Below are positions 11,358-38,488 of a stretch of 39,579 nt of DNA, one piece after another; positions within the stretch are counted from its first letter, which is position 1; every line of letters starts with the position of its first letter. The DNA lies in NCBI GenBank assembly GCA_023621995.1, contig JAMOAB010000070.1, positions 1 to 39,579 of the forward strand. Direction: 5' to 3'. The notes beneath the pieces were generated by a model. The model had not been told where the DNA came from, did not search any database, and worked only from the letters and a program-made list of their open reading frames with translations. Origin of the DNA: Bacillota bacterium. GTDB lineage: Bacteria > Bacillota > Clostridia > Caldicoprobacterales > Xylanivirgaceae. A program made the position numbers and the translations under genes.

Positions 11358-12125
11358 ATGCAAAAAGCGGTAGAGATAACACGGAATGGTATGACAATGA
11401 GGGGTATGCTCCACAGACCGGACGATGTGGAGGGAAAGGTTCCAATAGCCCTCATATTTCATGGTTTCACAGGCAATAAAATGGAGTCCCATTTTATATT
11501 TGTCAAATTATCTAGACGGCTGGCTAAAGAGGGTGTTGCAAGCTTACGTTTTGATTTTTTAGGCAGTGGAGAGAGTGACTGTGATTTCAGTGATATGACA
11601 CTATCAGGTGAAGTGAAGGATGCAGAGAGAATACTTGAATTTGCAAAGTCTTTAGAGTGGGTAGATAGGAATAGGATATATGCTGTAGGGCTTAGTATGG
11701 GCGGTGCTGTTGCCAGCATACTTGCAGGGCAGCATAGTGATGACATTGCCCGTCTGTGTCTATGGGCACCTGCAGGGAATATGCCGGAGCTCATAATATC
11801 TAGATTAAATGAGTTAAAAGCTACAGAAGATATAGATGATGACTTTGAGCACTACGATCTAGGTGGTTTTCTTCTTGGGAGAGACTTTGTCGAGGATATT
11901 AAGACACTAGATATATATGGTCTAGCCTCTCCTTACGATAAGGAAGTACTTATTATCCATGGTGATGAGGATTTATCGGTTCCCCTTTCTGCTTCCCATA
12001 AATACATGGATATATATGGCGATAGGGCAAAGCTCCATGTAATAGAAGGTGCAGATCATACATTCAATAAATTTGAATGGGAACAGGAGACTATAGGTAA
12101 GACGGTTGAATTTTTGACCAAGTGA
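11358..12125 (+). CDS. alpha/beta hydrolase, feruloyl/cinnamoyl esterase-like
   Basis: A 255-residue alpha/beta hydrolase without a signal peptide. HGFTGNK (35-41) supplies the oxyanion region, GLSMGG the nucleophile Ser113, HGDEDLSVP the acid Asp205, and GADHTF the His234. The HGFTGNK and overall layout resemble small cytosolic cinnamoyl/feruloyl esterases, but general acyl-ester or peptide-ester substrates are equally possible. The start has an AAGGGGGT site eight bases upstream. It is followed after 30 bases by the Mur-ligase-like gene and then three aminopeptidase genes, with no terminator between, so it is probably the first gene of a five-gene unit. Confidence 0.85.
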   Translation: MQKAVEITRNGMTMRGMLHRPDDVEGKVPIALIFHGFTGNKMESHFIFVKLSRRLAKEGVASLRFDFLGSGESDCDFSDMTLSGEVKDAERILEFAKSLEWVDRNRIYAVGLSMGGAVASILAGQHSDDIARLCLWAPAGNMPELIISRLNELKATEDIDDDFEHYDLGGFLLGRDFVEDIKTLDIYGLASPYDKEVLIIHGDEDLSVPLSASHKYMDIYGDRAKLHVIEGADHTFNKFEWEQETIGKTVEFLTK

Positions 12126-12155: not shown

Positions 12156-13541
12156 ATGATACTCAAACAGTTATTAGCTAGCACCCCAATATTTGAGATA
12201 CGGGGTTCGAGGCAGAATATTATAAAGGGACTGGCTATAGATACTGACAATGTCAGGCAGGATTATCTATATATATACATAGAAGATAGGGAAGATATGG
12301 GCTATGAAGAGAGTATAGAAAAGGCAGTAAGTCTTGGGGCAACTGCCGTATGTATAGGGCAAGAGTATGATATATTGCCCTATGATATAACTTTTGTAAA
12401 AACCTATAACGTAAAAAGGTTTTTATCTGCGGTTAGTAAAAATTTTTATCAGAATCCATCTCAAAGTATAGATATGATAGGTATTACAGGGAGCCATGGG
12501 AAGACCACTGTAGGTACTATGGTTCGATCTATTCTCAAGGCTGCTGGAGTTCCAACTGTCATGATAAATACTTCCTCATGTATATTAGCCGATGGTCCTC
12601 CATACATACATGAGGACATATTAAATCCCATAGTTTTTACTAAATTTCTCAGGGAAGCAGCCGATAGAGGCATAAAGAGGGGTATAATTGAATGTTCATA
12701 TACTACAATAGTAGAGGAACGTCTGAGGCATATATGGTTCGATAGTCTAATATATACTGATCTATATACCTATTTTAAGAATCAGGAAAAAGACTGCCAT
12801 TATCTTGAGATTCGTAAGACACTCATAGATCATCTTAAGCATATAAAATGTCCCATAATAGTAAATATGGATGATTATCATGCTAACCAGCTTAAAAACA
12901 GAAATATAGTAGGCTATGGAGTATATGGCAGATACAGTGTCACTGCAAAGGACATAGTACTTATGCCCGACAGTAGCGAGTTTACAATTCAAACTCCTCG
13001 TGGTTCAAAAGAGATAACTTTAGGTTCACCAGGGCTCCACAATGTATATAATGCAATGGCTGCCATTGGATGGTGTGTTGCCGAGGGTATAGAGTTTCCG
13101 TACATCGAAGAGGGGTTAAAGCGCTTAGAGGGTTTAGAACATATTCAATACAATAAGGATATGGATATAACCAACCCCATATCTATAAAGGTATATAACT
13201 ATTCTACCCCAAACGAAGTTCCTAAGTTGCTAGCAAAGGGATACGATGACAATGGATATGATAATAGAGTAGCAATACTATGTGTTCCCCAATGTGAGGA
13301 TTCTTCTGTATATAAGGATATAGGGAATGCTCTGAATAAGTTTAGCCGCTACTGTGTAATGACTCTAGACCATAATAATATATATAACTTTAAAGATAGT
13401 GCATATTCTATAGTTCAAAATATGCCAGATTCTGCAGTACATTATGAGATAGATCATTATAAGGCACTTAAAAAGAGCAGAAATATTGTAAAAGATGGAG
13501 GATCTATTGTAGTACTTGCCCAGGAAAACTCAGAACATTAA
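12156..13541 (+). CDS. divergent Mur-ligase-family protein (MurE-like)
   Basis: A 461-residue protein with the three-domain outline of Mur ligases: a short N-terminal MurE-like domain (1-100), a central ATPase domain with P-loop GITGSHGKTT (109-118), and a C-terminal domain. The P-loop is closer to the GTHGKT form of MurC than to the GTNGKT form of MurE. The central ECSYTTIVEERL (Glu179) is at the place of the E-V-S-S-H-A-L motif, so the usual Ser-Ser-His is lost. The D-H-L-D-x-H motif that normally follows reads TDLYTYFKNQEKDCH. No D-N-P-R amino-acid recognition motif is visible in the C-terminal domain. It is therefore a paralogue with unknown acceptor and amino acid, not the housekeeping MurE. 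It sits between an esterase-like gene and three M42 aminopeptidases. Confidence 0.7.
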   Translation: MILKQLLASTPIFEIRGSRQNIIKGLAIDTDNVRQDYLYIYIEDREDMGYEESIEKAVSLGATAVCIGQEYDILPYDITFVKTYNVKRFLSAVSKNFYQNPSQSIDMIGITGSHGKTTVGTMVRSILKAAGVPTVMINTSSCILADGPPYIHEDILNPIVFTKFLREAADRGIKRGIIECSYTTIVEERLRHIWFDSLIYTDLYTYFKNQEKDCHYLEIRKTLIDHLKHIKCPIIVNMDDYHANQLKNRNIVGYGVYGRYSVTAKDIVLMPDSSEFTIQTPRGSKEITLGSPGLHNVYNAMAAIGWCVAEGIEFPYIEEGLKRLEGLEHIQYNKDMDITNPISIKVYNYSTPNEVPKLLAKGYDDNGYDNRVAILCVPQCEDSSVYKDIGNALNKFSRYCVMTLDHNNIYNFKDSAYSIVQNMPDSAVHYEIDHYKALKKSRNIVKDGGSIVVLAQENSEH

Positions 13542-13565: not shown

Positions 13566-14618
13566 ATGGAGAGTAAAGATTTTTTAGCAAGGCTCATTGA
13601 TATTCCAGGTGTATCTGGATACGAAATGGAAGTTGCCCATGAGGTTTCAAATGTGTTTAAAGAGTATTGTGATGATGTACGTATAGACGATTTCTATAAC
13701 GTATATGGTAGAAAGACTGGTGGTGATCTAGAGGATAGGCCCAAGATAATGCTTGCTGCCCATATAGACGAAATAGGCCTTATGGTTAAAGATATAGACG
13801 AGAAGGGTTTTATAAAATTTACAACCATAGGAGGGGTGGACCAGCGTATTCTCCTATCACAAGAGGTGATAGTGTATGGAAAAGAACCATTATTTGGAGT
13901 TATAGGCGCTAAGCCACCACATCTTCAGCAGCCTGGGGAGAGGGGCCAATCAGTAAAGATAGAAGATATGACTATTGACCTAGGTCTTTCAGCTGAAGAG
14001 GTAAAGGAGCTTGTAAAAGTAGGAGATATAATAACATTTAAAAGTCCACTAGTATCTATGAAAAATGGGTTTGTAAATGGCAAATCCATAGATGATAGGG
14101 CCGGAGTAGCAGTAATGTTAGAGGCCATGAAGGAGCTCAACAGATTACATTTTAATGCTGACGTCTATTTTGTGGCTACAGTTCAAGAAGAGGTAGGAGT
14201 TAGGGGTGGGACTATAAGTACATATAGTGTCAACCCCGATATAGGTATTGCAATAGATGTAACCCATGGTGATACTCCAGATTCTTCAAAGGAGGACACC
14301 CATGCAATGAATAAGGGACCTTCTATAGCAATAGGTCCTAATCTACATCCTAAGCTGACCAAGAGACTTATGGATATTGCTAAGGAATATGGTTTAGAAT
14401 ACCAAATAGAGGTTGCGCCTGGACCTACTGGAACGGATGCACGTGTTATGCAGATAGTAAGGGAAGGTATTCCAACAGTACTTGTAGAGATACCACTTAG
14501 ATACATGCATACCACAGTAGAGACTTTAAACATGGATAATGTCAAAAAGGCAGGCAGAATTATAGCATTATTTATAGCATCGATGGAGGAGGGATGGCAA
14601 AAATGGTTGAGCTACTAA
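13566..14618 (+). CDS. M42 family metallo-aminopeptidase, first of three
   Basis: A 350-residue M42 (TET/FrvX-type) dinuclear metal aminopeptidase. Visible ligands and catalytic residues: H66 and D68 in AHIDEIG, the bridging Asp of IDDRAG (176-177), the catalytic and metal Glu pair E208-E209 in QEEVG, D231 in AIDVTHGD, and H315 in RYMHT. All positions needed for activity are present. M42 enzymes form tetrahedral 12-mers in the cytosol and clip short peptides from the N-terminus. The start has an AAGGTGAT site. It is followed by two paralogues with overlapping or touching ends, so the three are translated together. Confidence 0.9.
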   Translation: MESKDFLARLIDIPGVSGYEMEVAHEVSNVFKEYCDDVRIDDFYNVYGRKTGGDLEDRPKIMLAAHIDEIGLMVKDIDEKGFIKFTTIGGVDQRILLSQEVIVYGKEPLFGVIGAKPPHLQQPGERGQSVKIEDMTIDLGLSAEEVKELVKVGDIITFKSPLVSMKNGFVNGKSIDDRAGVAVMLEAMKELNRLHFNADVYFVATVQEEVGVRGGTISTYSVNPDIGIAIDVTHGDTPDSSKEDTHAMNKGPSIAIGPNLHPKLTKRLMDIAKEYGLEYQIEVAPGPTGTDARVMQIVREGIPTVLVEIPLRYMHTTVETLNMDNVKKAGRIIALFIASMEEGWQKWLSY

Positions 14619-15619
14619 AAAAATTGACAGAGGCAAGTGGTGTATCTGGAAATGAAGACGAAGTTCGAGACATAATAAGAGAAGAGATAACGCCTTTAGT
14701 AGATAAAATATATATAGATGGCATAGGTAATCTTATAGCCTATAAAAAGGGTAAGGGCGAAGACGTTAAGAAGATAATGCTATGTGCCCATATGGATGAA
14801 GTAGGATTTATAATAACATCAATAAGTGACAACGGTATGCTCAAATTCAAGCCTGTAGGAGGTATAGACCCGAGAGTACTCATATCAAAGAGGGTATATA
14901 TAGGAAAAGACAAGATACCAGGCGTCCTTGGCATAAAGGCAATTCATCTCCAAGAACCAAGTGAGAGGAAGAATGCTGTCAAAGTAGAGCAGATGTATAT
15001 TGACATTGGTGTCAGTTCCAAGGAAGAAGCTGAGAAACTGGTGAATCTAGGCGATTACGCCATATTTGCAAGTGATATGGTGGAATTCGGTGACAATAAG
15101 ATAAAGGCCAAGGCACTCGATGATAGGGTAGGGTGCTTAACTCTTATAGAGGCATTGAAGGAAGAATATGACCACGACTTATATGCCTGCTTCACTGTAC
15201 AGGAGGAAGTGGGGCTAAGAGGTGCCGGAGTTGCTGCATATCATGTAGAGCCTGATATTGCAGTAGTGGTAGAAGGGACTACTTGTTCCGATGTGTCAGG
15301 AGTAGATGAACATATGTATTCCACCATAATGGGTAGTGGGCCTGCGATTACAATAATGGATGGAAGTTCAATTTCCAACAAGGCATTGATAGAAAAACTG
15401 AAGGCTACCGGTGATGCTAAGGGCATACCTTATCAGATAAAGAAGGGAACAACGGGAGGCAATGATGCAGGTAAGATACATATATCAAGGGAAGGTGTGG
15501 CAACCTGTGTAGTGTCTGTACCCTGTAGATATATCCATTCACCTTCATCTGTAATGGATATGGATGATTTGAAAAACACAATAGAATTGGTAAAAGAATT
15601 TGTGAAGGGATGTGAATAG
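14603..15619 (+). CDS. M42 family metallo-aminopeptidase, second of three
   Basis: A 338-residue M42 paralogue. Metal and catalytic residues: H63 and D65 in AHMDEVG, Asp173/174 in LDDRVG, E201-E202 in QEEVG, and a His in RYIHS near the end. At the position of D231 in the first copy it has Glu (E224, in VVEGTT), a substitution also used in other M42 subfamilies, so specificity may differ. The ATG at 14603 was preferred over 14594 because the GGAGGAGGG site touches the earlier ATG but is nine bases from this one, and the resulting N-terminus aligns with the other two copies. It overlaps the end of the upstream gene by 16 bases. Confidence 0.88.
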   Translation: MVELLKKLTEASGVSGNEDEVRDIIREEITPLVDKIYIDGIGNLIAYKKGKGEDVKKIMLCAHMDEVGFIITSISDNGMLKFKPVGGIDPRVLISKRVYIGKDKIPGVLGIKAIHLQEPSERKNAVKVEQMYIDIGVSSKEEAEKLVNLGDYAIFASDMVEFGDNKIKAKALDDRVGCLTLIEALKEEYDHDLYACFTVQEEVGLRGAGVAAYHVEPDIAVVVEGTTCSDVSGVDEHMYSTIMGSGPAITIMDGSSISNKALIEKLKATGDAKGIPYQIKKGTTGGNDAGKIHISREGVATCVVSVPCRYIHSPSSVMDMDDLKNTIELVKEFVKGCE

Positions 15620-15620
15620 T

Positions 15621-16619
15621 ATGAGGGAGTTACTTGCGAAATTAACTGGGACATATGGACCATCAGGTAATGAAGAGGAGATATCCAAGGTAATAGAGGA
15701 CGAGATAAGGGATTATGTAGATGAGATAAAAACAGATGTCATGGGTAATCTTATAGCTTTTAAAAAAGGCAATGGACAGGGTAAGCGAGTCATGTTATCG
15801 GCCCACATGGACCAGATTGGACTTATGGTAACCCATATTGATGATAATGGGTTTTTGAGGTTTTCCAATGTAGGTGGAATAAGTGTTTTGAATACTATCA
15901 ATAGCAAGGTCATATTTAAAAATGGCACTATAGGGAATGTAAGCTATGAAAGTGAGATAGATAATATAAAAGATATTAAGTTAAATAGGATGTATATAGA
16001 TATTGGTGCCAAAAGTTCAGAGGAGGCTTCTAACAAGGTATCTATAGGTGATGTGGCTGTATATTACTCACCGCTTAGTGATAGTAATGGCAGATACATA
16101 GGTGGTGCCATGGATGATAGGGCAGGTTGTGCTCTGCTTATACAGACTATAAAGGAACTTGAGGATTGCAAGAATGATGTATACTTTGTATTCAGTGTAC
16201 AGGAAGAAGTAGGGCTTAGGGGTGCAAAGACATCGGCTTATTCTATAAATCCTGATGTAGGTATTGCAGTAGATGTAACATCTACCGGTGATACGCCTAA
16301 GGCACGGACTATGGCTGTTAAATTAGGTGCTGGCCCTGCCATAAAGGTTAAAGATGGGTCGGTAATCTGTCATCCCAAGGTAAAGGGTCTTATGATAGAT
16401 AGGGCAGAAGAGCTAGGTATTCCCTACCAGCTCGAGGTACTAGAGTGGGGAGGCACTGATGCCGGCGCTATACATCTTACAAGAGAAGGTGTACCCTCGG
16501 GTGCAGTTTCTGTTCCATGTAGATATATACACAGTGCAAATGAAATGGTAGATGGCGCTGATCTTGAAAATGGTGTAAAACTTCTAGTTGCCATATTAGA
16601 GCAGGAGATAGAACTTTAA
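15621..16619 (+). CDS. M42 family metallo-aminopeptidase, third of three
   Basis: A 332-residue M42 paralogue starting MRELLAKLTGTYGPSGNEEE. Active-site residues: H62 and D64 in AHMDQIG, Asp165/166 in MDDRAG, E195-E196 in QEEVG, D218 in AVDVTSTGD, and His in RYIHS. The ATG at 15621 has GAAGGGA ten bases upstream and sits one base after the previous stop; the GTG at 15612 would leave no room for a ribosome site. The Asp at the fifth ligand position matches the first copy, not the second. The three copies have clearly diverged, so this is an old duplication. Confidence 0.88.
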   Translation: MRELLAKLTGTYGPSGNEEEISKVIEDEIRDYVDEIKTDVMGNLIAFKKGNGQGKRVMLSAHMDQIGLMVTHIDDNGFLRFSNVGGISVLNTINSKVIFKNGTIGNVSYESEIDNIKDIKLNRMYIDIGAKSSEEASNKVSIGDVAVYYSPLSDSNGRYIGGAMDDRAGCALLIQTIKELEDCKNDVYFVFSVQEEVGLRGAKTSAYSINPDVGIAVDVTSTGDTPKARTMAVKLGAGPAIKVKDGSVICHPKVKGLMIDRAEELGIPYQLEVLEWGGTDAGAIHLTREGVPSGAVSVPCRYIHSANEMVDGADLENGVKLLVAILEQEIEL

Positions 16620-16958: not shown

Positions 16959-16991
16959 AAGGACCTTTAATGCAAGGGTCCTTAATTTTTT
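16959..16991 (+). terminator. rho-independent terminator after ykuS
   Basis: A 10-bp stem (16959-16968 with 16974-16983, one G-U) with a 5-base loop is followed by six T at 16986-16991. Confidence 0.85.
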
Positions 16992-17482: not shown

Positions 17483-17514
17483 GGATTAATATTTATATGG
17501 ATAGGAGAGTAGAT

Positions 17515-18288
17515 ATGCATACGAAACAGAGCCTTTTAGATGATCTTGAGAACTTAGGTATTGATAGAAGGGGAACACTTCTCGTCCATTCCTCTATGAA
17601 GAGTATTGGTGAGGTAGAAGGGGGAGCAGATACTGTCTTAGATGCCCTATCTGAATATATGAAGGATGGACTATTAGTAATGCCAACTCATACCTGGTCA
17701 TATATAAATGCAGACAACCCACGGTTTTATGTTGAAGATTCCCCATCATGTGTAGGCATACTCACAGAGCTCTTTCGGAAGCGTCCTGGGGTGGTACGTT
17801 CCCTACATCCTACACATTCGGTGGCAGCCTTAGGGAAGGATGCCAAAGAATTTGTTGAAGGAAATGAGCTCTTTGATACCCCATGTGCAAGGGGTTCATC
17901 ATGGGGAAAGCTGTTGGATAGAGAGGCTACCATAATGCTCATAGGTGTGGATTTGACGCGTAATACATACATACACGGAGTAGAGGAGTGGCTTGATATA
18001 CCAGGACGGCTTACAGACACACATGAACAGTTATATGTAGTTCTTCCCGATGGTACTGAAATTTCTGTACCTTCTAGGAGACATCGTGGATATCCATCTG
18101 ATAATTTTGGCAAGGTGGAAGAGATATTTTTGAAAAATGGTATCATGTATAAGGGTGTATTTGGCGATGCAGAGGTTCGTATATGTGATACAGTGAGTAT
18201 GACAAATTGTCTTTTCCATATGCTTAGTATTGATCCACATCTCTTTTCTGACAACAGTCCCCTGGATGGGGGTTTTTACCAAACATGA
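17515..18288 (+). CDS. AAC(3) family N-acetyltransferase
   Basis: A 257-residue member of the aminoglycoside 3-N-acetyltransferase family. Typical blocks are LLVHSSMKSIGEVEGG near the N-terminus, LVMPTHTWSY, VRSLHPTHSVAALG and GVEEWLDIP in the middle. The enzymes move acetyl from acetyl-CoA to an amino group; chromosomal clostridial members often have unknown natural substrates, so resistance should not be assumed. The ATG at 17515 has AGGAG seven bases upstream; an in-frame ATG at 17497 is possible but its AAGGA lies eleven or more bases away. It follows the C_GCAxxG gene by about 30 bases and may share its transcript. Confidence 0.82.
   Translation: MHTKQSLLDDLENLGIDRRGTLLVHSSMKSIGEVEGGADTVLDALSEYMKDGLLVMPTHTWSYINADNPRFYVEDSPSCVGILTELFRKRPGVVRSLHPTHSVAALGKDAKEFVEGNELFDTPCARGSSWGKLLDREATIMLIGVDLTRNTYIHGVEEWLDIPGRLTDTHEQLYVVLPDGTEISVPSRRHRGYPSDNFGKVEEIFLKNGIMYKGVFGDAEVRICDTVSMTNCLFHMLSIDPHLFSDNSPLDGGFYQT
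18259..18277 (+). terminator. terminator-like hairpin inside the end of the AAC(3) gene
   Basis: CCCCT and GGGGG pair around a 4-base loop and are followed by TTTTT at 18273-18277, 11 bases before the end of the gene. The short G-C stem with a T-run looks like a terminator placed within the last codons. No other terminator is seen after this gene. Confidence 0.4.
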
Positions 18289-25505: not shown

Positions 25506-26348
25506 ATGAGAGACATATTATTCAACATCGCTGAACTCAAAGACTCCTTTAGACCTTCAGAACATAAGATAGCCAAATACATACTAGACAATCCAGAACA
25601 AGTCGTAGATTCCACCATAACAGAACTTGCCACAGCATGTGATACTAGTGAGGCAAGTATAGTAAGGTTTTGTAAAACTTTAAACCTAAAAGGATTTCAG
25701 GACCTTAAAGTAAAAATAGCTGCATCTCTTGCTATGAAACATAGATCATTGGATGGTGGTATAGATAGGGATGATTCAATCGCTGATATTGTACAGAAAA
25801 TTGTAGATTTCAATAAACAGGCAATAGAGCAGACGTCACATGTTACAGATTTAGAAGCCTTAGAGCAGGCTGTGGACATCCTATCAGAGGCAAAGCGAAT
25901 AGATTTTTGCGGTATGGGTGCGTCAGGCATAATTGCATACGATGCCATGACTAAATTCATGAGAATAAACATACCATGCAATTACTATCAAGATAGCCAT
26001 CTACAACTTACATCGGCAGCAAATCTATCAAAAGATGATGCGGCGGTAGGTATCTCATATTCAGGGACTACCAAAGAAGTAGTTGAGGTGTTAAAGGCAG
26101 CCAAGGAGAAGGGAGCTTCTACTATTAGCATAACTAAGGTAGGTAGTTCGCCTTTAGTAGACGTAGCTGATATAAATTTATTTGTATCATCTCAGGAGGC
26201 TATATTTAGAATGGGAGCTATGGCATCTAGAATAGCCCAGCTCAATTTAATAGATATATTGTTTGTAAGTGTGGCAATCAAAAAATACGATGAAGTTATT
26301 GAATATTTAGAGAATACTAGTGGGGCTACCTCCATTAGAAAAGTTTAG
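25506..26348 (+). CDS. murR: MurR/RpiR family transcriptional regulator
   Basis: A 280-residue regulator with an N-terminal RpiR helix-turn-helix (about 1-75, with LATACDTSEASIVRFCKTLNLKGF) and a C-terminal SIS sugar-phosphate-binding domain (about 110-250, with ISYSGTTKEVVEVLKAAKEKGA). In MurR the SIS domain senses MurNAc-6-phosphate and relieves repression of MurNAc genes. Its place directly before murQ supports the MurR assignment; other RpiR proteins sense other sugars. It starts at ATG with an AAAGGATG site nine bases upstream, downstream of a near-consensus promoter. Confidence 0.82.
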   Translation: MRDILFNIAELKDSFRPSEHKIAKYILDNPEQVVDSTITELATACDTSEASIVRFCKTLNLKGFQDLKVKIAASLAMKHRSLDGGIDRDDSIADIVQKIVDFNKQAIEQTSHVTDLEALEQAVDILSEAKRIDFCGMGASGIIAYDAMTKFMRINIPCNYYQDSHLQLTSAANLSKDDAAVGISYSGTTKEVVEVLKAAKEKGASTISITKVGSSPLVDVADINLFVSSQEAIFRMGAMASRIAQLNLIDILFVSVAIKKYDEVIEYLENTSGATSIRKV

Positions 26349-26366
26349 GACAGGGGATGATAATAG

Positions 26367-27278
26367 ATGGACGACGCACTTTACTCATTGGTGACAGAAC
26401 AACAGAATGAGCATAGCTTAAATATTGATATCATGGATACTATAGATGTACTAAAGATAATGAATGATGAAGATAAAAAAGTAGCATATGCAGTTGAAGA
26501 GTGCTTAGACGATATAACTCTTGCCGTAGATAAGATAGTTGAGAGGATGAAAAAGGGAGGTAGGCTTTTATACTTTGGTGCAGGTACAAGCGGTAGATTG
26601 GCCATATTAGATGCAGCAGAATGTCCCCCCACATTTGGCACTGAGCCTGAACTGGTGCAGGGTATTATGGCAGGTGGGAGTGGCGCATTCAACATTGCAA
26701 AGGAGGATATAGAAGACTATAAAGAAGAAGGAGCGGCAGATGTCATAGCGAAAGGTATTACAGAACTCGATTCAGTTGTAGGCCTCTCTGCAAGTGGTAG
26801 GGCACCATATGTTGTAGGAGCAATGGAGGAGGCAAAGAAGCGGGGGGCACTTACCGTATCCATAACATGTAATGAAAGATCTGTAATGGATGACATAGTA
26901 GATGTGCCCATCAATATAGTTGTAGGGCCGGAGGTCATAATGGGTTCTACTAGGCTGAAGGCAGGAACGGCGCAAAAGATGGTGCTTAATATGATATCTA
27001 CAGCTACCATGATAAAACTAGGGAAGGTATATGGAAATTTGATGGTAGATCTAAAACCTAAGAATAAAAAACTCATTGAAAGGGCTAAGAGAATTATAAT
27101 GCTTGCTACAGATGTATCGTATGAGGAAGCAGAAAAATACTTTGAGCTTAGCAGGAGAAATCCTAAGGTTGCAATAGTTATGATAGAAACTGGAACCGAC
27201 TATGATACGGCATGTAGGTTATTAGATAAGGGTAATGGATTTGTAGCAAAGGCAATAGAAATCTACCAAACAGTATAA
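26367..27278 (+). CDS. murQ: N-acetylmuramic acid 6-phosphate etherase
   Basis: A 303-residue SIS-domain enzyme that splits the lactyl ether of MurNAc-6-phosphate to give GlcNAc-6-phosphate and D-lactate. The signature GAGTSGRLAILDAAECPPT (71-89) contains the catalytic Glu85, and the second signature G-S-T-R-L-K-A-G-T-A-Q-K is intact. Length is normal for the family. It follows murR by 18 bases with a GGGG ribosome site, as in many MurNAc operons. The product feeds GlcNAc-6-phosphate deacetylase and glucosamine-6-phosphate deaminase, which are not in this window. Confidence 0.95.
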   Translation: MDDALYSLVTEQQNEHSLNIDIMDTIDVLKIMNDEDKKVAYAVEECLDDITLAVDKIVERMKKGGRLLYFGAGTSGRLAILDAAECPPTFGTEPELVQGIMAGGSGAFNIAKEDIEDYKEEGAADVIAKGITELDSVVGLSASGRAPYVVGAMEEAKKRGALTVSITCNERSVMDDIVDVPINIVVGPEVIMGSTRLKAGTAQKMVLNMISTATMIKLGKVYGNLMVDLKPKNKKLIERAKRIIMLATDVSYEEAEKYFELSRRNPKVAIVMIETGTDYDTACRLLDKGNGFVAKAIEIYQTV

Positions 27279-27333
27279 CTTTAAAGAATATGGCTACAAA
27301 TCTAGAATATTATAGATAGAAAGAGGGGGCAAA

Positions 27334-28293
27334 ATGGAGGTCACAGGTGTAGAGAGACAAAAAAAGATAAGTCAGCCTAAAGTAAACCATAAGAAAGTTA
27401 GGGCAAAAATATGGGCAGATCGCTATATGTACCTCATGATATTGCCGGTTGTGATATATTTTGTATTATTTCACTACTGGCCAATGTTATGGCTTAGAAT
27501 TGCATTTTATGATTATAAGATCTTGAAGGGGTTTGAAGGAAGCAAGTTTGTGGGGCTGAAACATTTTAAATCCTTTATACAAAGTCCTGATTTTCTAAAC
27601 ATTATATGGAATACATTATATCTCAATCTATTAAGTTTAGCTTTTGCATTTCCAGCTCCAATTGTGTTTGCACTCTTATTAAACGAACTTGCAGCTGGAA
27701 AGTTCAAGAAAACAGTTCAAACTATCAGTTATCTACCACACTTTTTATCTATGGTAGTTGTTGTGAGTATGATCAAAAACATTTTATCTCCTTCTATTGG
27801 AATAGTAAATTCTATAATGAAGAATATGGGAATGGAAGAGATATATTTCCTAGGTGAGGCTAAATATTTCAGACCTATAATGATAATATCAGGTATTTGG
27901 CAGGAGATGGGATGGGGATCGATAATCTATCTATCGGCCCTATCGGGGATAGATCCCGAACTGTATGAGGCAGCTGTAATGGATGGTGCAGGGCGCTTTA
28001 AGCAGGTTATATATATAACACTACCAGGAATTGCACAGACTATAATAGTTATGCTAATCTTGCGGATTGGAACCCTGCTATCGGTAGGATTTGAAAAAGT
28101 ATATTTGATGCAGAATGCATACAACCTTTCAGTATCGGAGGTTATATCCACATATGTATATAAAAGGGGAATGATAAATAACAACTACAGTCTAGCGACA
28201 GCGGTTGGTATGTTTAATGGAATAATAAGCTTAATCTTAGTGTCACTGGCTAATAGCTTGAGTAGGAAATATACAGAGATAAGCTTAATATAG
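27334..28293 (+). CDS. ABC sugar transporter permease (LplB/YtcP-type), first of two
   Basis: A 319-residue inner-membrane permease of the LplB-like carbohydrate uptake family, with about six membrane helices. The cytoplasmic EAA loop that docks the ATPase reads ELYEAAVMDGAGRFKQVIYI (near residue 210). A charged, soluble N-terminus (about 30 residues) precedes the first helix. It pairs with the permease at 28315. Position after murQ suggests MurNAc, disaccharide or muropeptide uptake, which is an inference. No ATPase gene is next to it; a shared MsmX-type ATPase encoded elsewhere is the usual solution. Confidence 0.88.
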   Translation: MEVTGVERQKKISQPKVNHKKVRAKIWADRYMYLMILPVVIYFVLFHYWPMLWLRIAFYDYKILKGFEGSKFVGLKHFKSFIQSPDFLNIIWNTLYLNLLSLAFAFPAPIVFALLLNELAAGKFKKTVQTISYLPHFLSMVVVVSMIKNILSPSIGIVNSIMKNMGMEEIYFLGEAKYFRPIMIISGIWQEMGWGSIIYLSALSGIDPELYEAAVMDGAGRFKQVIYITLPGIAQTIIVMLILRIGTLLSVGFEKVYLMQNAYNLSVSEVISTYVYKRGMINNNYSLATAVGMFNGIISLILVSLANSLSRKYTEISLI

Positions 28294-28314
28294 TAGAATG
28301 AGAGGAGATTATAG

Positions 28315-29208
28315 ATGTCAGTTCTCGGAAAAAAATCTACAGGGGAAAAAATATTTGACGTATTTAATATAGTTCTCATGTGCCTTTTGACTATGGCATT
28401 TCTCTACCCAGTATTGAATGTGTTGGCCATATCCCTTAGTGCAAGTTCGCCTGTTCTACGGGGAGAAGTGACGTTTTTTCCGAGGAGGCCTACTGTCAAG
28501 GCATATGAAAATATATTCACAAATAAATATATATGGAGATCCTACGGTAATACTATTTTCGTAGCGATTGTTGGATGTGTTCTAGGTCTAATAATGAGTT
28601 CTCTTGCTGCATATCCCATGGCATTTGGTGATTTCTATGGGAAGCAAGTATATAGTTTCATGATATTATTTACAATGTGGTTTAGTGGTGGCTTGATCCC
28701 CACATATCTAGTCATGAGGAAGTTAAAACTTTTAAATACTTATTGGGCCTTGATTTTCAACTTTTTAGCTCCGGCCTATTACATCATAATATTGAGGAGC
28801 TTTTTTGTAGGTATACCTATATCATTAATTGAATCGGCCAAGCTAGATGGTGCAAATGACTTTGTATGTTTGACCAGGATAGTGCTTCCAGTGTCAAAGC
28901 CTGTACTCGCCACTGTAGCGCTATGGTTCATAGTAGGTCATTGGAATAGCTTTTTACCAGCCATAATGTATCTAAATGATAGGAATAAATATACTCTACA
29001 GGTAGTATTACATGATATCGTACTTCAAGCATCAGGCAAATTATATGACATCGATGCGGCAGTTCATGCTGGTGAGGGTAGTATGGTCATACCCCAACAG
29101 ATACAAAATGCAGTTATATTCGTATCACTTATACCCATGCTCATAATATATCCATTTTTACAACAGTATTTTGTTAAGGGTGTAATGATCGGCTCTGTAA
29201 AGGGTTGA
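28315..29208 (+). CDS. ABC sugar transporter permease (LplC/YtcP-type), second of two
   Basis: A 297-residue permease with about six helices. The EAA loop is present as S-A-K-L-D-G-A-N-D-F (near residue 180), with Ser in place of the first Ala and the conserved G retained. It begins with the usual LplC-type short cytoplasmic tail (KKSTGEKIFDVFNI). The start follows the first permease by 21 bases with a GAGGAGA site. The two permeases together form the heterodimeric channel. Confidence 0.88.
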   Translation: MSVLGKKSTGEKIFDVFNIVLMCLLTMAFLYPVLNVLAISLSASSPVLRGEVTFFPRRPTVKAYENIFTNKYIWRSYGNTIFVAIVGCVLGLIMSSLAAYPMAFGDFYGKQVYSFMILFTMWFSGGLIPTYLVMRKLKLLNTYWALIFNFLAPAYYIIILRSFFVGIPISLIESAKLDGANDFVCLTRIVLPVSKPVLATVALWFIVGHWNSFLPAIMYLNDRNKYTLQVVLHDIVLQASGKLYDIDAAVHAGEGSMVIPQQIQNAVIFVSLIPMLIIYPFLQQYFVKGVMIGSVKG

Positions 29209-29254
29209 TCTTGCATATAAATAATTATGAGAAAGAAAGGAGTATAAAGATAGC

Positions 29255-30889
29255 ATGACTAAGATGAAGGCTAAGAGAATTATAGGTTTAATATTGGCCA
29301 TTATGATGTTAGCAACCATATTTGTTGGTTGTAAGGGAAAGGATGCTGACACCGAGATAGACCAGAAGCCAGATGTGTCAGATGCAAAGGATAAGGAGGA
29401 CGATAATAAAGAGAAGGAAGACGACGATGATGGGGAAGAAGGAGATACTCTGTTCAAAGAGACCTTTAAGTTCAGCTATATGGGTAGTATATGGGGAGTA
29501 CACCCAGATGGTGGAACTCCAATCTTTGATGAACTCATGAAGAGGACCAATACTGAGATAGACTTCCGCTGGTATCCTACAGACCAATATCAGGATAAGG
29601 TCACAGTGACATTGGCATCGGATGATATACCAGATATGATTGCCAATGCTTCTATTCCAACATTGATCGATGAAGGGGCCATCATTCCTCTAGACGACCT
29701 TCTTGAGGAGCATGGACCAAATATCCTTGCTAATTTACAGGAAGATGACTATCCCTATATGCGTGCAGCTATAGACGGAAATATCTATGCTGTACCGTTC
29801 ATACTCGATTTTCCACCTGCATATGCTATGCAGATTCGTAAGGATTGGCTAGACAACGTGGGAATTTCTGAAGTACCGGAGACATGGGATGAATGGAAAG
29901 CAGCATGGAAAGCTTTCAAGGAACAGGATGCCAACGGCGATGGTGATCCTACAAATGAGATTCCTTATGCAGGAGATATCTATGGGCTATTGCCAGCCTT
30001 TGGTATAAACGTATCCAATAAGATTGGATTTACAACAGATGCCGATGGAAACTACACAATTATGTACGAACTACCAGAGTTTAGAACATTCTTAGAAGAG
30101 ATGCGAGAACTATATAAAGAAGGTATCCTAGATAAGGAGTTTGCTACACGAGGAACATATATCGACAATCCAGAGCTTGAGAAGGTATGTGATGCAAACT
30201 TAGCAGGTTCTGTTATGACGTGGGCAGCTAATACCAGGAGAACTACAGAGGTACTCCAAGAGCTAGATGAAAATGCAGCAATGATTGGAGTAAAACCTGT
30301 TCAAGGCCCTGATGGGAAACAGGGTATACCATCTAGGGTAAGGGTTACTCCTACTGCAGCAATTACAGTTGCAGGTGAAGATAAGGCAGAGGATATTATA
30401 AAGTTCTTTAACTATGTATTCAGTGAAGAGGGTATTAAACTTATGTCCTATGGAATCGAAGGCGAACACCATGAGATGGTTGACTCTGAGCCCATGCTTA
30501 AGTCACCTTATGTGGATTCCTTCGAGAATGCTAGGGAAGCTGGCCTTAACTTTACACCTTTCCCCCATCTATTTGCTGAAGAGGCATTCTTACAGATAAT
30601 GATGGGTGGACAAAAGTATGATGAGCTTCCAGATGCAATGAAATACTTCCATGACGCCCTATATGTAGGTGAAGATTATTTCTTTACTCCAACACCTACT
30701 CTAAACACAGAGGCCTATACTGAAAAACAAGGTGAGATTCTACCTAAGATAGAATCCCTATTAGCACAATGTGTAACAGGAGAAATCTCCATTGATGACT
30801 TTTATGCTGAGTATGAGAAACTCAAACCAGTAGGCCTACAGGATATATTAGATCAGGGTGCTGAAGCTTGGAGCAAGATAAGTAAATAG
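29255..30889 (+). CDS. extracellular solute-binding lipoprotein of the sugar ABC importer
   Basis: A 544-residue family-1-like binding protein. The signal ends in a lipobox TIFVGC (Cys26). Residues about 27-65 are an unusually acidic, low-complexity linker rich in Asp, Glu and Lys, typical of a long tether across the wall. The binding domain follows, starting near FSYMGSIWGVHPDGGTPIFDEL, and is longer than E. coli maltose-type binding proteins, as in LplA relatives. It lies 46 bases after the second permease, with AAAGGAG twelve bases from the ATG. A 36-bp palindrome follows and probably marks an RNA stability or partial termination point. Confidence 0.88.
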   Translation: MTKMKAKRIIGLILAIMMLATIFVGCKGKDADTEIDQKPDVSDAKDKEDDNKEKEDDDDGEEGDTLFKETFKFSYMGSIWGVHPDGGTPIFDELMKRTNTEIDFRWYPTDQYQDKVTVTLASDDIPDMIANASIPTLIDEGAIIPLDDLLEEHGPNILANLQEDDYPYMRAAIDGNIYAVPFILDFPPAYAMQIRKDWLDNVGISEVPETWDEWKAAWKAFKEQDANGDGDPTNEIPYAGDIYGLLPAFGINVSNKIGFTTDADGNYTIMYELPEFRTFLEEMRELYKEGILDKEFATRGTYIDNPELEKVCDANLAGSVMTWAANTRRTTEVLQELDENAAMIGVKPVQGPDGKQGIPSRVRVTPTAAITVAGEDKAEDIIKFFNYVFSEEGIKLMSYGIEGEHHEMVDSEPMLKSPYVDSFENAREAGLNFTPFPHLFAEEAFLQIMMGGQKYDELPDAMKYFHDALYVGEDYFFTPTPTLNTEAYTEKQGEILPKIESLLAQCVTGEISIDDFYAEYEKLKPVGLQDILDQGAEAWSKISK

Positions 30890-30908
30890 TAAATTAGGAT
30901 ATTCATAA

Positions 30909-30944
30909 ACTAGGAGGTAATTGACATGTCAATTACCTCCTAGT
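30909..30944 (+). repeat. 36-bp perfect palindrome after the binding-protein gene
   Basis: Two 18-base halves (30909-30926 and 30927-30944) are exact inverted copies with no spacer. In RNA they form a long hairpin with a minimal loop. No T-run follows, so a full terminator is unlikely; a 3' stability hairpin limiting downstream expression is more likely. The left half contains AGGAGGT and the centre an ATG seven bases later. Confidence 0.85.
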
Positions 30945-31037
30945 AATATTATTCTGCATATTATATTTATACATAAGGGAAAGGGACATCGTAATATATT
31001 GAAAATTCAGTTATATACTATTGTAGGTGAGAAATAT

Positions 31038-32030
31038 ATGCAAATAGTAAGATTTGATGATAGTCATACCGCCCATGTGGTGGCTCTATGGAATAAACAT
31101 GCTGGCACAGAGATGCCATATAAACCATTTACAGAAGAAAGCTTCAAACAAACATTTATAGACAACCCCCATTTTAGCTATGAGGGTACATTTGTAGGCA
31201 TAGAAAACGGCAAGATAATAGCCTTTGCAAATGGGGTATTCAAAAGAGAATTCTTGCCCCATGAAACTCATGAGAACACACCTGGATATCTGACCTTTAT
31301 ACTAGTAGATAGGGAGCACAGAGAAAAGGGCTATGGAACTGCTATGCTAAGGGCAGTGGAGGCCTATTTTAAAGAGAATGGAAAAAGGGAGATACAGGTA
31401 ATATTCTTTAATCCTATAAACTTAAGTTGGAATATACCTGGCACCTGTGGACATGATCATCCAAATGCACCAGGTGTGGATATTGGGGGATTAGGATATG
31501 AGTTTTTAAAGGGTCATGGCTATAAGGAGCGGACTAGAGAAGTGGCAATGTATCTAGATCTATCTGAGTTTAAACTTCCTGATAAGACTAAAGAAAAATT
31601 GAAAGAACTGAGATCTAAAGGCATAGAAATAGAGTACTATGACGCTATAAAACACCCCAAAGGCTTTGATGAGCTATTTGACAACTTAAGACATGAGCAC
31701 TGGAGACGGGATATACAGGATAACTTAGAATTGGATGACCCCCATCCTATACTTGTGGCAAGCGATAGGGGTAAGATCTGCGGTTTTGCGGGACCTATAG
31801 CAGCTGAGCCCAGTGGAAGAGGATGGTTTTGTGGCATAGGAGTAGACCCAAATTATGGAGGTCATGGGATTGGCACTACTATGTTTTTTATGCTCATGGA
31901 TAGCTTTAAGGAGGTAGGGGCCAAGTTTAGCTCTTTATTTACTGGTGAGAATAACCCTGCTAAGAAGATGTATGATCGTGCAGGGTTTAAAGAGGTAAAG
32001 ACTTGGGCAGTTATGGGAAAGGAGATATAG
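31038..32030 (+). CDS. protein with two GNAT acetyltransferase domains
   Basis: A 330-residue cytosolic protein made of two GNAT units. The first (about 1-175) has VDREHREKGYGTAM, the second (about 190-330) VDPNYGGHGIGTTMF, both containing the R/Q-x-x-G-x-G acetyl-CoA pyrophosphate loop pattern. The end (NNPAKKMYDRAGF) is typical of active GNAT enzymes. Substrate is unknown; within a peptidoglycan-sugar operon an amino sugar or peptide amine is plausible. The ATG at 31038 has AGGTGA about seven bases upstream and matches the start of the first domain; the longer frame back to 30921 passes through the palindrome and is not credible. Confidence 0.78.
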   Translation: MQIVRFDDSHTAHVVALWNKHAGTEMPYKPFTEESFKQTFIDNPHFSYEGTFVGIENGKIIAFANGVFKREFLPHETHENTPGYLTFILVDREHREKGYGTAMLRAVEAYFKENGKREIQVIFFNPINLSWNIPGTCGHDHPNAPGVDIGGLGYEFLKGHGYKERTREVAMYLDLSEFKLPDKTKEKLKELRSKGIEIEYYDAIKHPKGFDELFDNLRHEHWRRDIQDNLELDDPHPILVASDRGKICGFAGPIAAEPSGRGWFCGIGVDPNYGGHGIGTTMFFMLMDSFKEVGAKFSSLFTGENNPAKKMYDRAGFKEVKTWAVMGKEI

Positions 32031-32033
32031 ACT

Positions 32034-32735
32034 ATGGATAGGGAAAAACTTCATATAATGGCCATTGGCGCCCATATAGGCGATGTGGAGCTGTCTTGTG
32101 GCTTGACGCTGGCTAAGCATGCTGTATTGGGAGATGACATAACAACTGTGGCTCTCACTGCAGGAGAGAGGGGTGCACCACCTTCTATACCAGTAGAAGA
32201 ATTTAAAGAGCTGAATATAGAGTCTGCAACTGAATTTGCCAATATGCTGGGAGGGGATTCTATAGTTTTAAACTATAGAGACGGAGAAGTACCAGAGAAT
32301 GAGGATATAAAGTTTGAAGTCTGTGATATCATTAGAGCCTATAAACCAGATGTCATACTAACCCATTGGAAAAACAGTATTCATAAGGATCATATAACAT
32401 GTCACAGAGTCGTAGTAGATGCTCACTTCTATGCAGCTCTTCAGCATATGGAGAGGGAGCTACCTGCACACTGGGCAAAGGGCCCATATTTTGCCGAAAA
32501 TTGGGAGGACTCCCACGAATTTATCCCATATGTATTTGTAGATGTCACTGAAGGGTATGAGCTATGGTATGATGCCGTGAGAAAGCTCTGGCTTACAGAG
32601 AACTCTCCCTGGTTTAAATATCTCGACTATTATGATGCCCTTAGTAGGACAAGAGGTGCTCTCATACACAAAGAGCGAGGAGAGACATTTATGGTGGCGC
32701 CATCACAGATGAGGACAGTAATCGATTCTTTTTAA
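32034..32735 (+). CDS. PIG-L/LmbE-family deacetylase homologue with altered active-site motif
   Basis: A 233-residue protein of the PIG-L/MshB fold, which normally removes N-acetyl groups from GlcNAc-type sugars using zinc. The first motif is AHIGDVE (13-19) instead of AHPDDxE: His14 and Asp17 can still bind metal, but the position of the general-base Asp (Asp15 in MshB) is Gly16. The second motif IHKDH (Asp119, His120) is kept. The protein may be inactive, may use another base, or may catalyse a different reaction. It starts three bases after the GNAT gene, so they are translationally linked, an interesting match of an acetyltransferase with a deacetylase homologue. Confidence 0.8.
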   Translation: MDREKLHIMAIGAHIGDVELSCGLTLAKHAVLGDDITTVALTAGERGAPPSIPVEEFKELNIESATEFANMLGGDSIVLNYRDGEVPENEDIKFEVCDIIRAYKPDVILTHWKNSIHKDHITCHRVVVDAHFYAALQHMERELPAHWAKGPYFAENWEDSHEFIPYVFVDVTEGYELWYDAVRKLWLTENSPWFKYLDYYDALSRTRGALIHKERGETFMVAPSQMRTVIDSF

Positions 32736-32751
32736 AGGAAAGGTGTGAACA

Positions 32752-33819
32752 ATGATAGATAGTGAAAAACTAAAAAAAGCTTTAAAGTCAGTAGACAAGG
32801 CCGTAGACAGGGGAGATTTTCCTGGTGCTACAATAGCCATTGGCAGTAGTGACGGTGTAGAAGAGATATATCAATATGGGAAGGCGGCCCTATATCCTAA
32901 AGCTTTAGATCTCAACATAGATACACTATATGACTTAGCTTCACTTACTAAAGTTGTAGGAACGACAACCCTATATATGAGATTTATAGAGAAGGGTCTA
33001 GTGACCCTTCACGATAGAGTGGCAGACTATATTCCAGAATTTAAGGGTGGAGAGAAAGATAAGGTTACTCTATTTAACCTACTGACACATACATCAGGGC
33101 TACCAGATCATCTGCCCTTTTATGAACTCTGTAGTGATTATAGGGACACAATAGACTATATAGCGAATATAGAACTAGAATACCTACCTGGCACTAGGGT
33201 AATATATAGTGATTTAGGATTTATATTACTAGGTTATATATTAGAAGAGATAGGAGGCAGTAGGTTAGATCATCTATTCAATAAATATATATTTACCCCA
33301 CTAGGTATGAAGAATACCTGTTTTAATCCTACCACAGATAATGTAGCAGCCACAGAGGTAGATAAGTCAACGGGTAAGGCAATAGTGGGAAAATGTCATG
33401 ATGAAAATGGAAGATTTTTTGGCGGCGTATCAGGGCATGCAGGCCTATTTTCAGATATTGGTGATATGGTGAAGTTCTCCAATATGCTTATTAATGGCGG
33501 GAGGATAGGCGAAGATATATTTCTCTCTTCGGCTGCCTTTGAAACAATGATCAGAAACTATACCCAAGATCTAGATGAAGATAGGGGCATAGGTTGGTGT
33601 GTAAAGGGAGATAAGGGAAGAATTTCTTCTGGTGGAGACCTCATATCTCCAAGTGCATTTGGGCATACAGGCTTTACGGGAACGTCTATATGGACTGATA
33701 TAGAGCAGGATATATATATAGTGCTCCTTACAAATAGGGTGCATCCGACGCGCGAGAACAATGCTCTGCTTAGGTTTAGGCGGACTTTTCACAACTCAGT
33801 GTTGGCAGCCAAGATTTGA
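32752..33819 (+). CDS. serine hydrolase of the beta-lactamase/PBP4* family (YbbE-like)
   Basis: A 355-residue class C beta-lactamase-like hydrolase. Motifs are SxxK in ASLTKV (Ser64, Lys67), YSD (152-154) in place of YxN, and GHTGFTGT in place of the KTG box. No signal peptide is seen, so it should work in the cytosol. The B. subtilis MurNAc locus contains a similar gene, ybbE, beside nagZ and namZ, and this gene keeps that neighbourhood. Possible roles are removal of peptide or ester groups from imported muropeptides. The start has an AAAGG site. Confidence 0.85.
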   Translation: MIDSEKLKKALKSVDKAVDRGDFPGATIAIGSSDGVEEIYQYGKAALYPKALDLNIDTLYDLASLTKVVGTTTLYMRFIEKGLVTLHDRVADYIPEFKGGEKDKVTLFNLLTHTSGLPDHLPFYELCSDYRDTIDYIANIELEYLPGTRVIYSDLGFILLGYILEEIGGSRLDHLFNKYIFTPLGMKNTCFNPTTDNVAATEVDKSTGKAIVGKCHDENGRFFGGVSGHAGLFSDIGDMVKFSNMLINGGRIGEDIFLSSAAFETMIRNYTQDLDEDRGIGWCVKGDKGRISSGGDLISPSAFGHTGFTGTSIWTDIEQDIYIVLLTNRVHPTRENNALLRFRRTFHNSVLAAKI

Positions 33820-33842
33820 TATCTAGAGAAGGGGGTAGAAAA

Positions 33843-34919
33843 TTGAAACTTGGAATATCTATATATACAGGAGATAACTATACCCACAAGTCCAATATAG
33901 AATATATTGAGATGGCCAGTAGTTTGGGGATAAGGAGTATGTTTACATCCCTTAATATATCTAGTGATAGGAATCAGACGGAAAAGACAATGGAATTAAT
34001 TAAATATGCCAAGTCTAAGGGGTTATACACTTCGGTAGATGTGTCATCTCGTGTATTTGATCTACTCAATATAAAACCCAATGACCTATCGGCTTTTCAT
34101 GATATTGGCATAGATGAGATTAGGCTAGACTATGGCTTTGATGCAAAGACAATTGCAGCCATGTCAAATAATGACATTGATATGGGCATTGTGTTAAATG
34201 CCTCTACTATAGAGGAGTCGGACATAGAGAAGTTATTTTTCAATGGAGTGAACAGGAGGAATATAAAGGCCTGTCATAACTTCTACCCAAGACCTTTTAC
34301 TGGTCTATCCTATAGCTATTATATGAAGAAGACAACTATGCTGCAACAACACGGTATAGGAGTTTCTGCATTCATACCATCAGATACAGGAAAGCGTGGA
34401 CCTTTGTATGAGGGATTGCCTACAATTGAAACACATAGGAAAATTCCATCCTATATAGCTGCAAAGCAGCTCATATATGATAATGTTCTAGATACTATAT
34501 ATATTGGAGATGCCTATGCAAAGGAAACTGAGCTAGAGAGAATCTTAGGCATAGACCCAGAAGTGATTGAACTATATGTGGATATATTTGATGGTGCATC
34601 AGAAACAGAAGAAGGAATTTTGCTAAGAGACTATCATACAAATAGAAGGGATTCCTCAGAATACATAGTTCGGTCAGCAGAGTCTAGAGGAGATCATATT
34701 TCCACTATAGAGCCCTCTAACTGCAAAGAAAGGGAGTATGGCAGTATTACTGTGGACAATGTAAATATGGGACGCTATATGGGAGAGCTTCAAATAGCAA
34801 GGGCAGACCTTCCTTCTGATCCTAGAGTAAATGTTGTAGGCAAAGTGGCTAAAGATCATATGATGTTTCTAGACTATATAGAGCCGGGTACTAAATTTAG
34901 ACTTATAAAGAGTAAATAA
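33843..34919 (+). CDS. mupG: MupG-type TIM-barrel protein (DUF871), 6-phospho-N-acetylmuramidase
   Basis: A 358-residue protein starting MKLGISIYTGDN, with the DUF871/MupG layout: a TIM barrel (about 1-235) followed by a cyclophilin-like small domain (about 250-358). Conserved stretches include GIDEIRLDYGF, IVLNAST, ACHNFYPRPFTGLS and FIPSD. In Staphylococcus aureus MupG splits MurNAc-6-phosphate-GlcNAc inside the cell. The TTG at 33843 has GGGGG seven bases upstream; the longer TTG at 33816 overlaps the previous gene and has no site. The required 6-phosphate would come from a phosphotransferase or kinase; no phosphotransferase gene is in the window. Confidence 0.85.
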   Translation: MKLGISIYTGDNYTHKSNIEYIEMASSLGIRSMFTSLNISSDRNQTEKTMELIKYAKSKGLYTSVDVSSRVFDLLNIKPNDLSAFHDIGIDEIRLDYGFDAKTIAAMSNNDIDMGIVLNASTIEESDIEKLFFNGVNRRNIKACHNFYPRPFTGLSYSYYMKKTTMLQQHGIGVSAFIPSDTGKRGPLYEGLPTIETHRKIPSYIAAKQLIYDNVLDTIYIGDAYAKETELERILGIDPEVIELYVDIFDGASETEEGILLRDYHTNRRDSSEYIVRSAESRGDHISTIEPSNCKEREYGSITVDNVNMGRYMGELQIARADLPSDPRVNVVGKVAKDHMMFLDYIEPGTKFRLIKSK

Positions 34920-34932
34920 CACAAAAATTCTA

Positions 34933-35690
34933 GTGAATGTTATGGAGGGTATAGATCCATGTACTAATCGAGAATTAGGCCGGAAAATGACTCAAGTTAG
35001 CATGGCCTTTGATAGCATGACAGGAGAGCTTATAGAACTTGTGAATATGAAAAATGGGGACAATTTATTAAAAAACTGGAGTGCCCTTAAGAGTATGCCC
35101 TTTTCTATTGAGGTAAGGACGACTAGTGGCGCAACAGAGACCTTAACTCTCCCTAAGCAAAACCTTTTATTAAAAAAACAGCCATTTAAAGCCCGAGATT
35201 ATCATGAAAGAGACAGAGACCAGTACATGTAGGTCAGGCTTCAAGGGCAATGATAAACAAGGACTTTGCAATAGGCACATATCTATGGATATATGACTTA
35301 GAGGAGGACAATACATTCAGGAGAGACCCGGAGCAGCTTAAGCATCTAAAAAAGGTTATAGGGCTTAGAGCGGTCTGGCTAAAATTATATGGTCAGGGAA
35401 TATTTAGGGATACCGTAGGTGTAGAGGTGAGCCACCCTGATATTATGGCAAAGCTCTATAACTTAGAGGATGGTTCTAAACTGGTGGCTATAAACAAAAT
35501 AGATAGATTAGCAGGAGAGAGTATAAGGATAGACTGCACAGATCTAAATGTTAAAGAGGTAATATGGCATTCTCTCTATGAGCCAGAGACACCAATTAAT
35601 ATAGATTGGAATATGGTAGTCCAAGGAGAAAGTAGATATATGGAGCTGGAACTGAAAGACTGTGAATTGGCTCTTATATATCTGACTTAA
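34933..35690 (+). pseudogene. decayed gene, N- and C-terminal remnants of one larger protein
   Basis: Two short frames lie side by side without ribosome sites. The first (34933-35232) reads like the start of a carbohydrate-active or DUF6259-like protein (SMAFDSMTGELIELVNMKNGDNLLKNW is a usual opening, split here for length: SMAFDSMTG then ELIELVNMKNG). The second (35250-35690), in another frame that stays open back to 35205, reads like a C-terminal beta-sandwich ending in LELKDCELALIYL. A middle part of perhaps several hundred residues is missing. The simplest explanation is an internal deletion with frameshift of a gene that once belonged to this operon. Two real small proteins cannot be ruled out. 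Confidence 0.55.
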
Positions 35691-35719
35691 ATTTAGACTA
35701 TAAAAAGAGGTGAAGTTTT

Positions 35720-36871: not shown

Positions 36872-36901
36872 TGAATTTTAAGTAGCGCAGGAGGTTTTGA
36901 A

Positions 36902-38482: not shown

Positions 38483-38488
38483 GTGGGC

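Follow-up and report, generated by a model that had tools for sequence, protein, structure and literature searches.

What does a gene related to the cell-wall ligase MurE do directly in front of three aminopeptidase genes? The question is posed by a locus in the window, which here means the whole stretch of 39,579 nucleotides that was analysed from a Bacillota bacterium. The gene, for which we coin the name MurX, lies among the following features:

11358 to 12125, plus strand: alpha/beta hydrolase (from the annotation), 30 bp upstream of MurX and in the same operon
12156 to 13541, plus strand: MurX, a putative MurE-derived pseudo-ligase of 461 amino acids with a PF08245 domain and a MurE-type fold, in its own clade outside MurE
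13566 to 14618, plus strand: M42 aminopeptidase a (PF05343, 309.6 bits), with metal and catalytic motifs
14594 to 15619, plus strand: M42 aminopeptidase b (PF05343, 333.7 bits), overlapping a by 25 bp
15612 to 16619, plus strand: M42 aminopeptidase c (PF05343, 309 bits), overlapping b by 8 bp
16959 to 16983, plus strand: terminator-like hairpin with a T-run downstream of the operon, from a consensus scan in which the number of sites was not above that in shuffled sequences

A MurE-derived lineage confined to one order

The MurX reading frame begins with ATG and its bounds are exact. A first-pass annotation had taken it for an extra Mur-ligase paralogue, and this proved correct. The Pfam Mur_ligase_M domain (PF08245) matches residues 110-305 with 83.2 bits (E 3.1e-23), which is far above chance, and this domain together with a GxxGKT/S P-loop places the protein in the Mur superfamily by homology only. 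The host genome encodes seven Mur_ligase_M proteins, the other six being MurE, MurF, MurD, MurC, a CphA-like protein and FolC; MurE, MurF and MurD share one contig, and the MurE there is normal. Since the host has normal MurC, MurD, MurE and MurF, MurX is a true additional paralogue. Only PF08245 was matched among the Pfam profiles: there was no match to the PF02875 C-terminal domain at E<=0.001 and none to the MurT C-terminal domain. CapB was not among the 23 NCBIfam matches, drawn from a set whose inclusion of a CapB model is unconfirmed, and neither a GatD-like neighbour nor capC or capA was present among the annotated genes.

The AlphaFold2 model (27 sequences; mean pLDDT 86.9, pTM 0.87) retains a MurE-like C-terminal domain despite the missing PF02875 match. 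Its top structural match by Foldseek and VIA-align was PAP11, a MurE-like protein of plastids (Z 35.1, residues 1-330, rmsd 2.5 over 323 residues), and MurE structures were also at the top (Z about 29-34), extending up to residues 1-456 of MurX. The full-length rmsd of 10-12 probably reflects a different orientation of the domains in the model. The shared fold by itself shows no function.

In a tree of 52 proteins MurX forms a single clade (support 100/100) that is sister to MurE plus MurE-like proteins; its stem measures 1.95 changes per site, a length that leaves the exact branching depth uncertain. The family numbers 17 members in the 61 genomes searched, including the window's own, to which the other 16 are 39-70% identical; a separate scan of genome contigs yielded just one close orthologue. 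A search profile built from 14 members scored 688-767 bits in all 17 genomes of three families (f1, to which the window belongs, f2 and f3) of one Clostridia-type order, so that MurX is present in every sampled genome of these families. It occurs in 0/13 genomes of the fourth family, f4, where the best scores were at most 252 bits, the level of MurE. No orthologue-level MurX was found outside the order in 391 genomes of the class or 398 of the phylum (about 760 altogether). A search of the open-licence literature on Mur ligases with M42 aminopeptidases, Mur pseudoenzymes and MurE paralogues returned nothing matching. MurX is a real variant within a known fold family, restricted to the order and apparently undescribed.

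In f4 genomes there is a second MurE-like paralogue (L057:9355-10887, L058:448-1929 and L130) that reads DNCR for DNPR and has its other catalytic motifs intact; a normal MurE coexists with it in at least one f4 genome.

Residues lost, kept and gained

An alignment of 16 full-length MurX proteins with 24 MurE proteins revealed that 27 MurE-invariant columns are kept in MurX and 101 are changed, and that 49 clade-specific invariant columns have been gained. More than 80 residues are invariant across the MurX family. The main motifs in the window are these:

12489 to 12509, plus strand: P-loop GSHGKTT, residues 112-118, with Lys116 invariant in the family
12690 to 12704, plus strand: ECSYT, residues 179-183; the Mg-binding Glu is kept and the SSH of MurE is replaced by invariant Y182 and T183
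12756 to 12839, plus strand: new invariant block TDLYTYF..N...D.HY...R..LIDHLK, residues 201-228, replacing TNL.xDHLD..H.....Y..AK..LF
13032 to 13058, plus strand: G.HN.YNA motif, residues 293-301, kept in the alignment
13137 to 13541, plus strand: relic MurE C-terminal domain, residues 328-461, with Arg, Asp, DNPR and GKGHE lost and the end shortened

The first-pass annotation had described an intact P-loop alongside changed or missing MurE motifs, and the alignment bears out both observations. The P-loop residues G112, G115 and K116 are retained together with E179 and N299 (16/16), and HN stands at 295-296, a pair that is F-S in most MurE proteins. The window protein reads ECSYTTI from E179 at the SSH motif, YTDLYTYFKN where DHLDxH has gone, and DHNN (405-408) at DNPR. 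The losses go further than had been noticed: the carbamylated Lys is gone, as are the Arg and Asp of the C-domain, GKGHE, the UDP-binding DSR...DGH and the last ~30 residues. DHL with the catalytic His is found in 24/24 MurE proteins and 0/16 MurX proteins, which have the YTYF block instead, and the position of the carbamylated Lys is K in 24/24 MurE versus R in 16/16 MurX (R220). Nearby, there is an acidic gain at D202, which is Asn in all MurE. The residues common in MurX include no Arg at Ec R342 (GRxE) and no Asp at Ec D357 (DYAHTP), in alignment numbering; SSH and GKGHE are lost, and DSR, DGH, the TTP loop and DNPR are lost as motifs. None of the 16 full-length members retains the DHLD His, the carbamyl-Lys, the Arg or the Asp of the C-domain, DNPR, GKGHE or the DSR/DGH UDP motifs.

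The list of catalytic invariants of the Mur superfamily reportedly comes from Bouhss and co-workers. DNPR is the amino-acid motif of MurE, and in Staphylococcus aureus MurE the replacement N407A, at the equivalent Asn, yields a totally inactive enzyme (PMC3829189). The carbamylated Lys is essential in MurD, MurE and MurF, while in MurC and Mpl it is replaced and its absence is compensated by a Glu (PMC3060825); no such Glu was seen in MurX, which has no acidic residue at 180-183. These replacements make a good case that ordinary ligation has been lost. The earlier idea that MurX joins an amino acid to a non-UDP acceptor is unsupported and the less likely one: the second-Mg His, the carbamyl-Lys and the C-domain Arg and Asp, on which Mur ligases depend to form the acyl-phosphate and to position the amino acid, are lost in 16/16 members, and the C-domain, which holds the amino acid, is the least constrained part of the protein. 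The small peptide-like product proposed with it is unsupported, if conceivable. The view of MurX as a specialised paralogue outside cell-wall synthesis, also taken at that stage, is borne out; a place within MurE or MurC with a full catalytic set, which would have spoken against it, was not observed.

Constraint is distributed unevenly along the protein. Identity to the window protein across the family is 43-68% in the N-terminal domain, 46-78% in the middle domain and 17-56% in the C-domain, which is always lowest; outside the two nearest relatives the C-domain is only 17-25% identical, against about 50% for the remainder, whereas MurE from these genomes is most conserved in its C-domain (67-83%). 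For the closest pair dN/dS is about 0.12 overall, 0.08 in the middle domain and 0.17 in the C-domain, approximate values at a dS of 1.7 that is near saturation. Together these figures place MurX under selection, mainly in its N-terminal and middle domains.

Two simple explanations were rejected on the profile cut-off, the alignment, the tree and dN/dS. An ordinary cell-wall function as a genuine MurE or MurC is hardly tenable for MurX: MurE is indeed its best NCBIfam match, but the 162.9 bits fall far under the curated cut-off of 373 (TIGR01085 gave 109.1 bits against a cut-off of 257.3), a normal MurE is encoded beside MurF and MurD, and tree and alignment place MurX outside the MurE clade and without the catalytic residues. 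A decaying or non-functional murE copy would account for those losses and for the fast evolution of the family (tree length 4.9, compared with 3.4 for MurE). It is very improbable all the same, given retention in 17/17 genomes over three families, intact frames and the many invariant residues, and the low dN/dS indicates purifying selection and so argues that MurX is no pseudogene.

The operon with M42 aminopeptidases

The first-pass annotation had pointed to an esterase-like hydrolase and three peptidases as the partners of the gene, and these are the alpha/beta hydrolase and M42 genes listed above. The hydrolase and MurX are 30 bp apart and MurX and M42a 24 bp, followed by overlaps of 25 and 8 bp; this tight arrangement indicates a single operon. 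The metal ligands and the catalytic Glu (H.D, DDR, EE, [DE], RY[MI]H) are present in M42a, M42b and M42c. At one metal-ligand position the Asp of M42a and M42c is replaced by Glu in M42b, a substitution that may mark a different substrate class.

MurX directly precedes M42a in 17/17 genomes of f1-f3, and the order M42a-b-c follows it in 16/17, the remaining contig ending after M42a. The gene upstream varies. All f1 genomes and some of those of f2 have the alpha/beta hydrolase ahead of MurX; in six f2/f3 loci the order is MgtC-MurX-M42abc (PF02308, 149.7 bits in one of them). Family f1, the window included, has no MgtC at this point but the hydrolase instead. The 13 f4 genomes keep the M42 genes without MurX, and an MgtC-family gene is usually directly before M42a (ten loci). 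The comparison suggests that the link between MgtC and M42 is older than MurX and that MurX was probably inserted between them. A MurE-like ligase would thus have given rise to MurX, which would have joined a pre-existing M42a-b-c operon in the ancestor of the three families; alternatively, MurX may have been lost later from the fourth.

Tests for an interface between MurX and the peptidases gave no clear sign of one and are weak: genomes with and without MurX differ by 1, 4 and 0 fixed differences in M42a, M42b and M42c, respectively, and evolutionary rates covary weakly between MurX and M42b (rho 0.47) or M42c (rho 0.45), with uncorrected p about 0.02-0.03, and not between MurX and M42a.

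Elsewhere in the window a peptidoglycan (MurNAc) recycling cluster (25506-39406) encodes an RpiR regulator, a MurQ-like SIS protein, an ABC sugar transporter, a PIG-L deacetylase, a beta-lactamase-like protein, MupG, NamZ, NagZ and a BadF/NagK-type kinase. A link between MurX and this cluster (25.5-39.4 kb) was considered and rejected: the two are near each other only in the same genus, and in six other genomes the cluster is not within about 30 kb. The gene at 17497-18288 encodes an Antibiotic_NAT protein (aminoglycoside 3-N-acetyltransferase-like; Pfam 224.6 bits) that scores far under the NCBIfam cut-offs for resistance genes.

A possible nucleotide-dependent partner of the peptidases

We put at roughly one in two the probability that MurX is an ATP-binding, MurE-derived pseudo-ligase that has been repurposed and now serves the M42 system as an accessory or regulator. 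With the Mur fold and the P-loop middle domain kept, it probably binds ATP or ADP-Mg. The UDP-MurNAc-peptide site, the second-metal/acyl-phosphate site and the amino-acid site have all been lost, and from these losses we infer that MurX has given up Mur-type ligation of amino acids. The probable present working site consists of Y182, T183, W194, Y200, D202, Y206 and R220 with the LIDHLK helix; placed by homology, this conserved new set would adjoin the old gamma-phosphate site. Because MurX always precedes the three peptidase genes in the order, it probably has a new job with them, a role deduced from synteny alone. It would most likely act as a nucleotide-dependent accessory protein, whether regulator, adaptor or assembly factor, for the TET-type M42 peptidases with which it is co-expressed, in parallel with the recruitment of PAP11 into an RNA polymerase. 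A sharper version is a tentative possibility: the three paralogues would make up one M42 (TET) aminopeptidase, possibly a hetero-oligomer, and MurX would be its nucleotide-dependent subunit for regulation or assembly, an ATP-sensing partner.

The retained P-loop Lys and Mg-binding Glu could point to catalysis rather than binding alone, and it is conceivable, if doubtful, that MurX remains an ATP-dependent amide ligase. Its site would have been rebuilt, R220 and D202 standing in for the carbamyl-Lys and Asn, and its acceptor would be a new one, perhaps among the peptides on which the M42 enzymes act. The invariance of the P-loop Lys, the Mg-binding Glu and HN..N, and the new invariant set in the middle domain, would fit such an enzyme, as would the precedent of MurC and Mpl, in which Glu makes up for the carbamylated Lys (PMC3060825). 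Yet no member keeps the superfamily's catalytic His, Arg or Asp, the C-domain drifts, the compensating acidic residue of MurC has no counterpart at 180-183, and, peptidases aside, no ligase-accessory gene is conserved next to MurX. Loss of the C-domain is not absolute proof against ligation: CapB/PgsB is a working ligase although it lacks a normal Mur C-domain, and a partner might supply that function here too. A binder of nucleotides or metabolites with an envelope-related role, for which the M42 linkage is merely an inherited operon position, is rather unlikely; MurE ancestry and the MgtC-family membrane protein upstream in several f2/f3 genomes, and before M42a in f4, speak for it, but MgtC is missing from this position in f1 and M42a-b-c is always there.

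Should the repurposed pseudo-ligase reading and its strict link to three M42 peptidases be true, MurX would be a candidate ATP-responsive partner of these self-compartmentalised peptidases; little is understood of how bacteria control them. Automatic pipelines would probably label such proteins as MurE or Mur ligase, and their annotation calls for caution. Among bacterial Mur ligases, loss of ligation with retention of P-loop and fold has rarely been documented.

Among known systems, MurE is the nearest family by profile and tree and shares with MurX the three-domain fold (residues 1-456), the P-loop and the Mg-binding Glu; unlike MurE, MurX has lost the residues for the UDP-sugar, the second metal and the amino acid as well as the catalytic ones of the C-domain, and its C-domain is weakly constrained. 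MurC resembles it in a GxHGKT-type P-loop with His, and both Mpl and MurC lack the carbamyl-Lys, but they keep the other catalytic residues and have the compensating Glu. Like MurX, CapB/PgsB and MurT have the Mur middle domain but do not match a normal Mur C-domain profile, and their acceptors are specialised, non-UDP or lipid; MurX differs in having no CapC/CapA or GatD neighbours among the annotated genes. The well-known case of lost ligation is PAP11 of plant plastids (8r6s chain Q, 8w9z, 8xzv), which is among the top sequence matches of MurX as well as its top structural match. PAP11 belongs to a separate lineage, has a long N-terminal extension and, in the sequence alignment, keeps a Lys near the position where MurX has Arg; like MurX it is derived from MurE, and it works outside the cell wall as a subunit of the plastid RNA polymerase.
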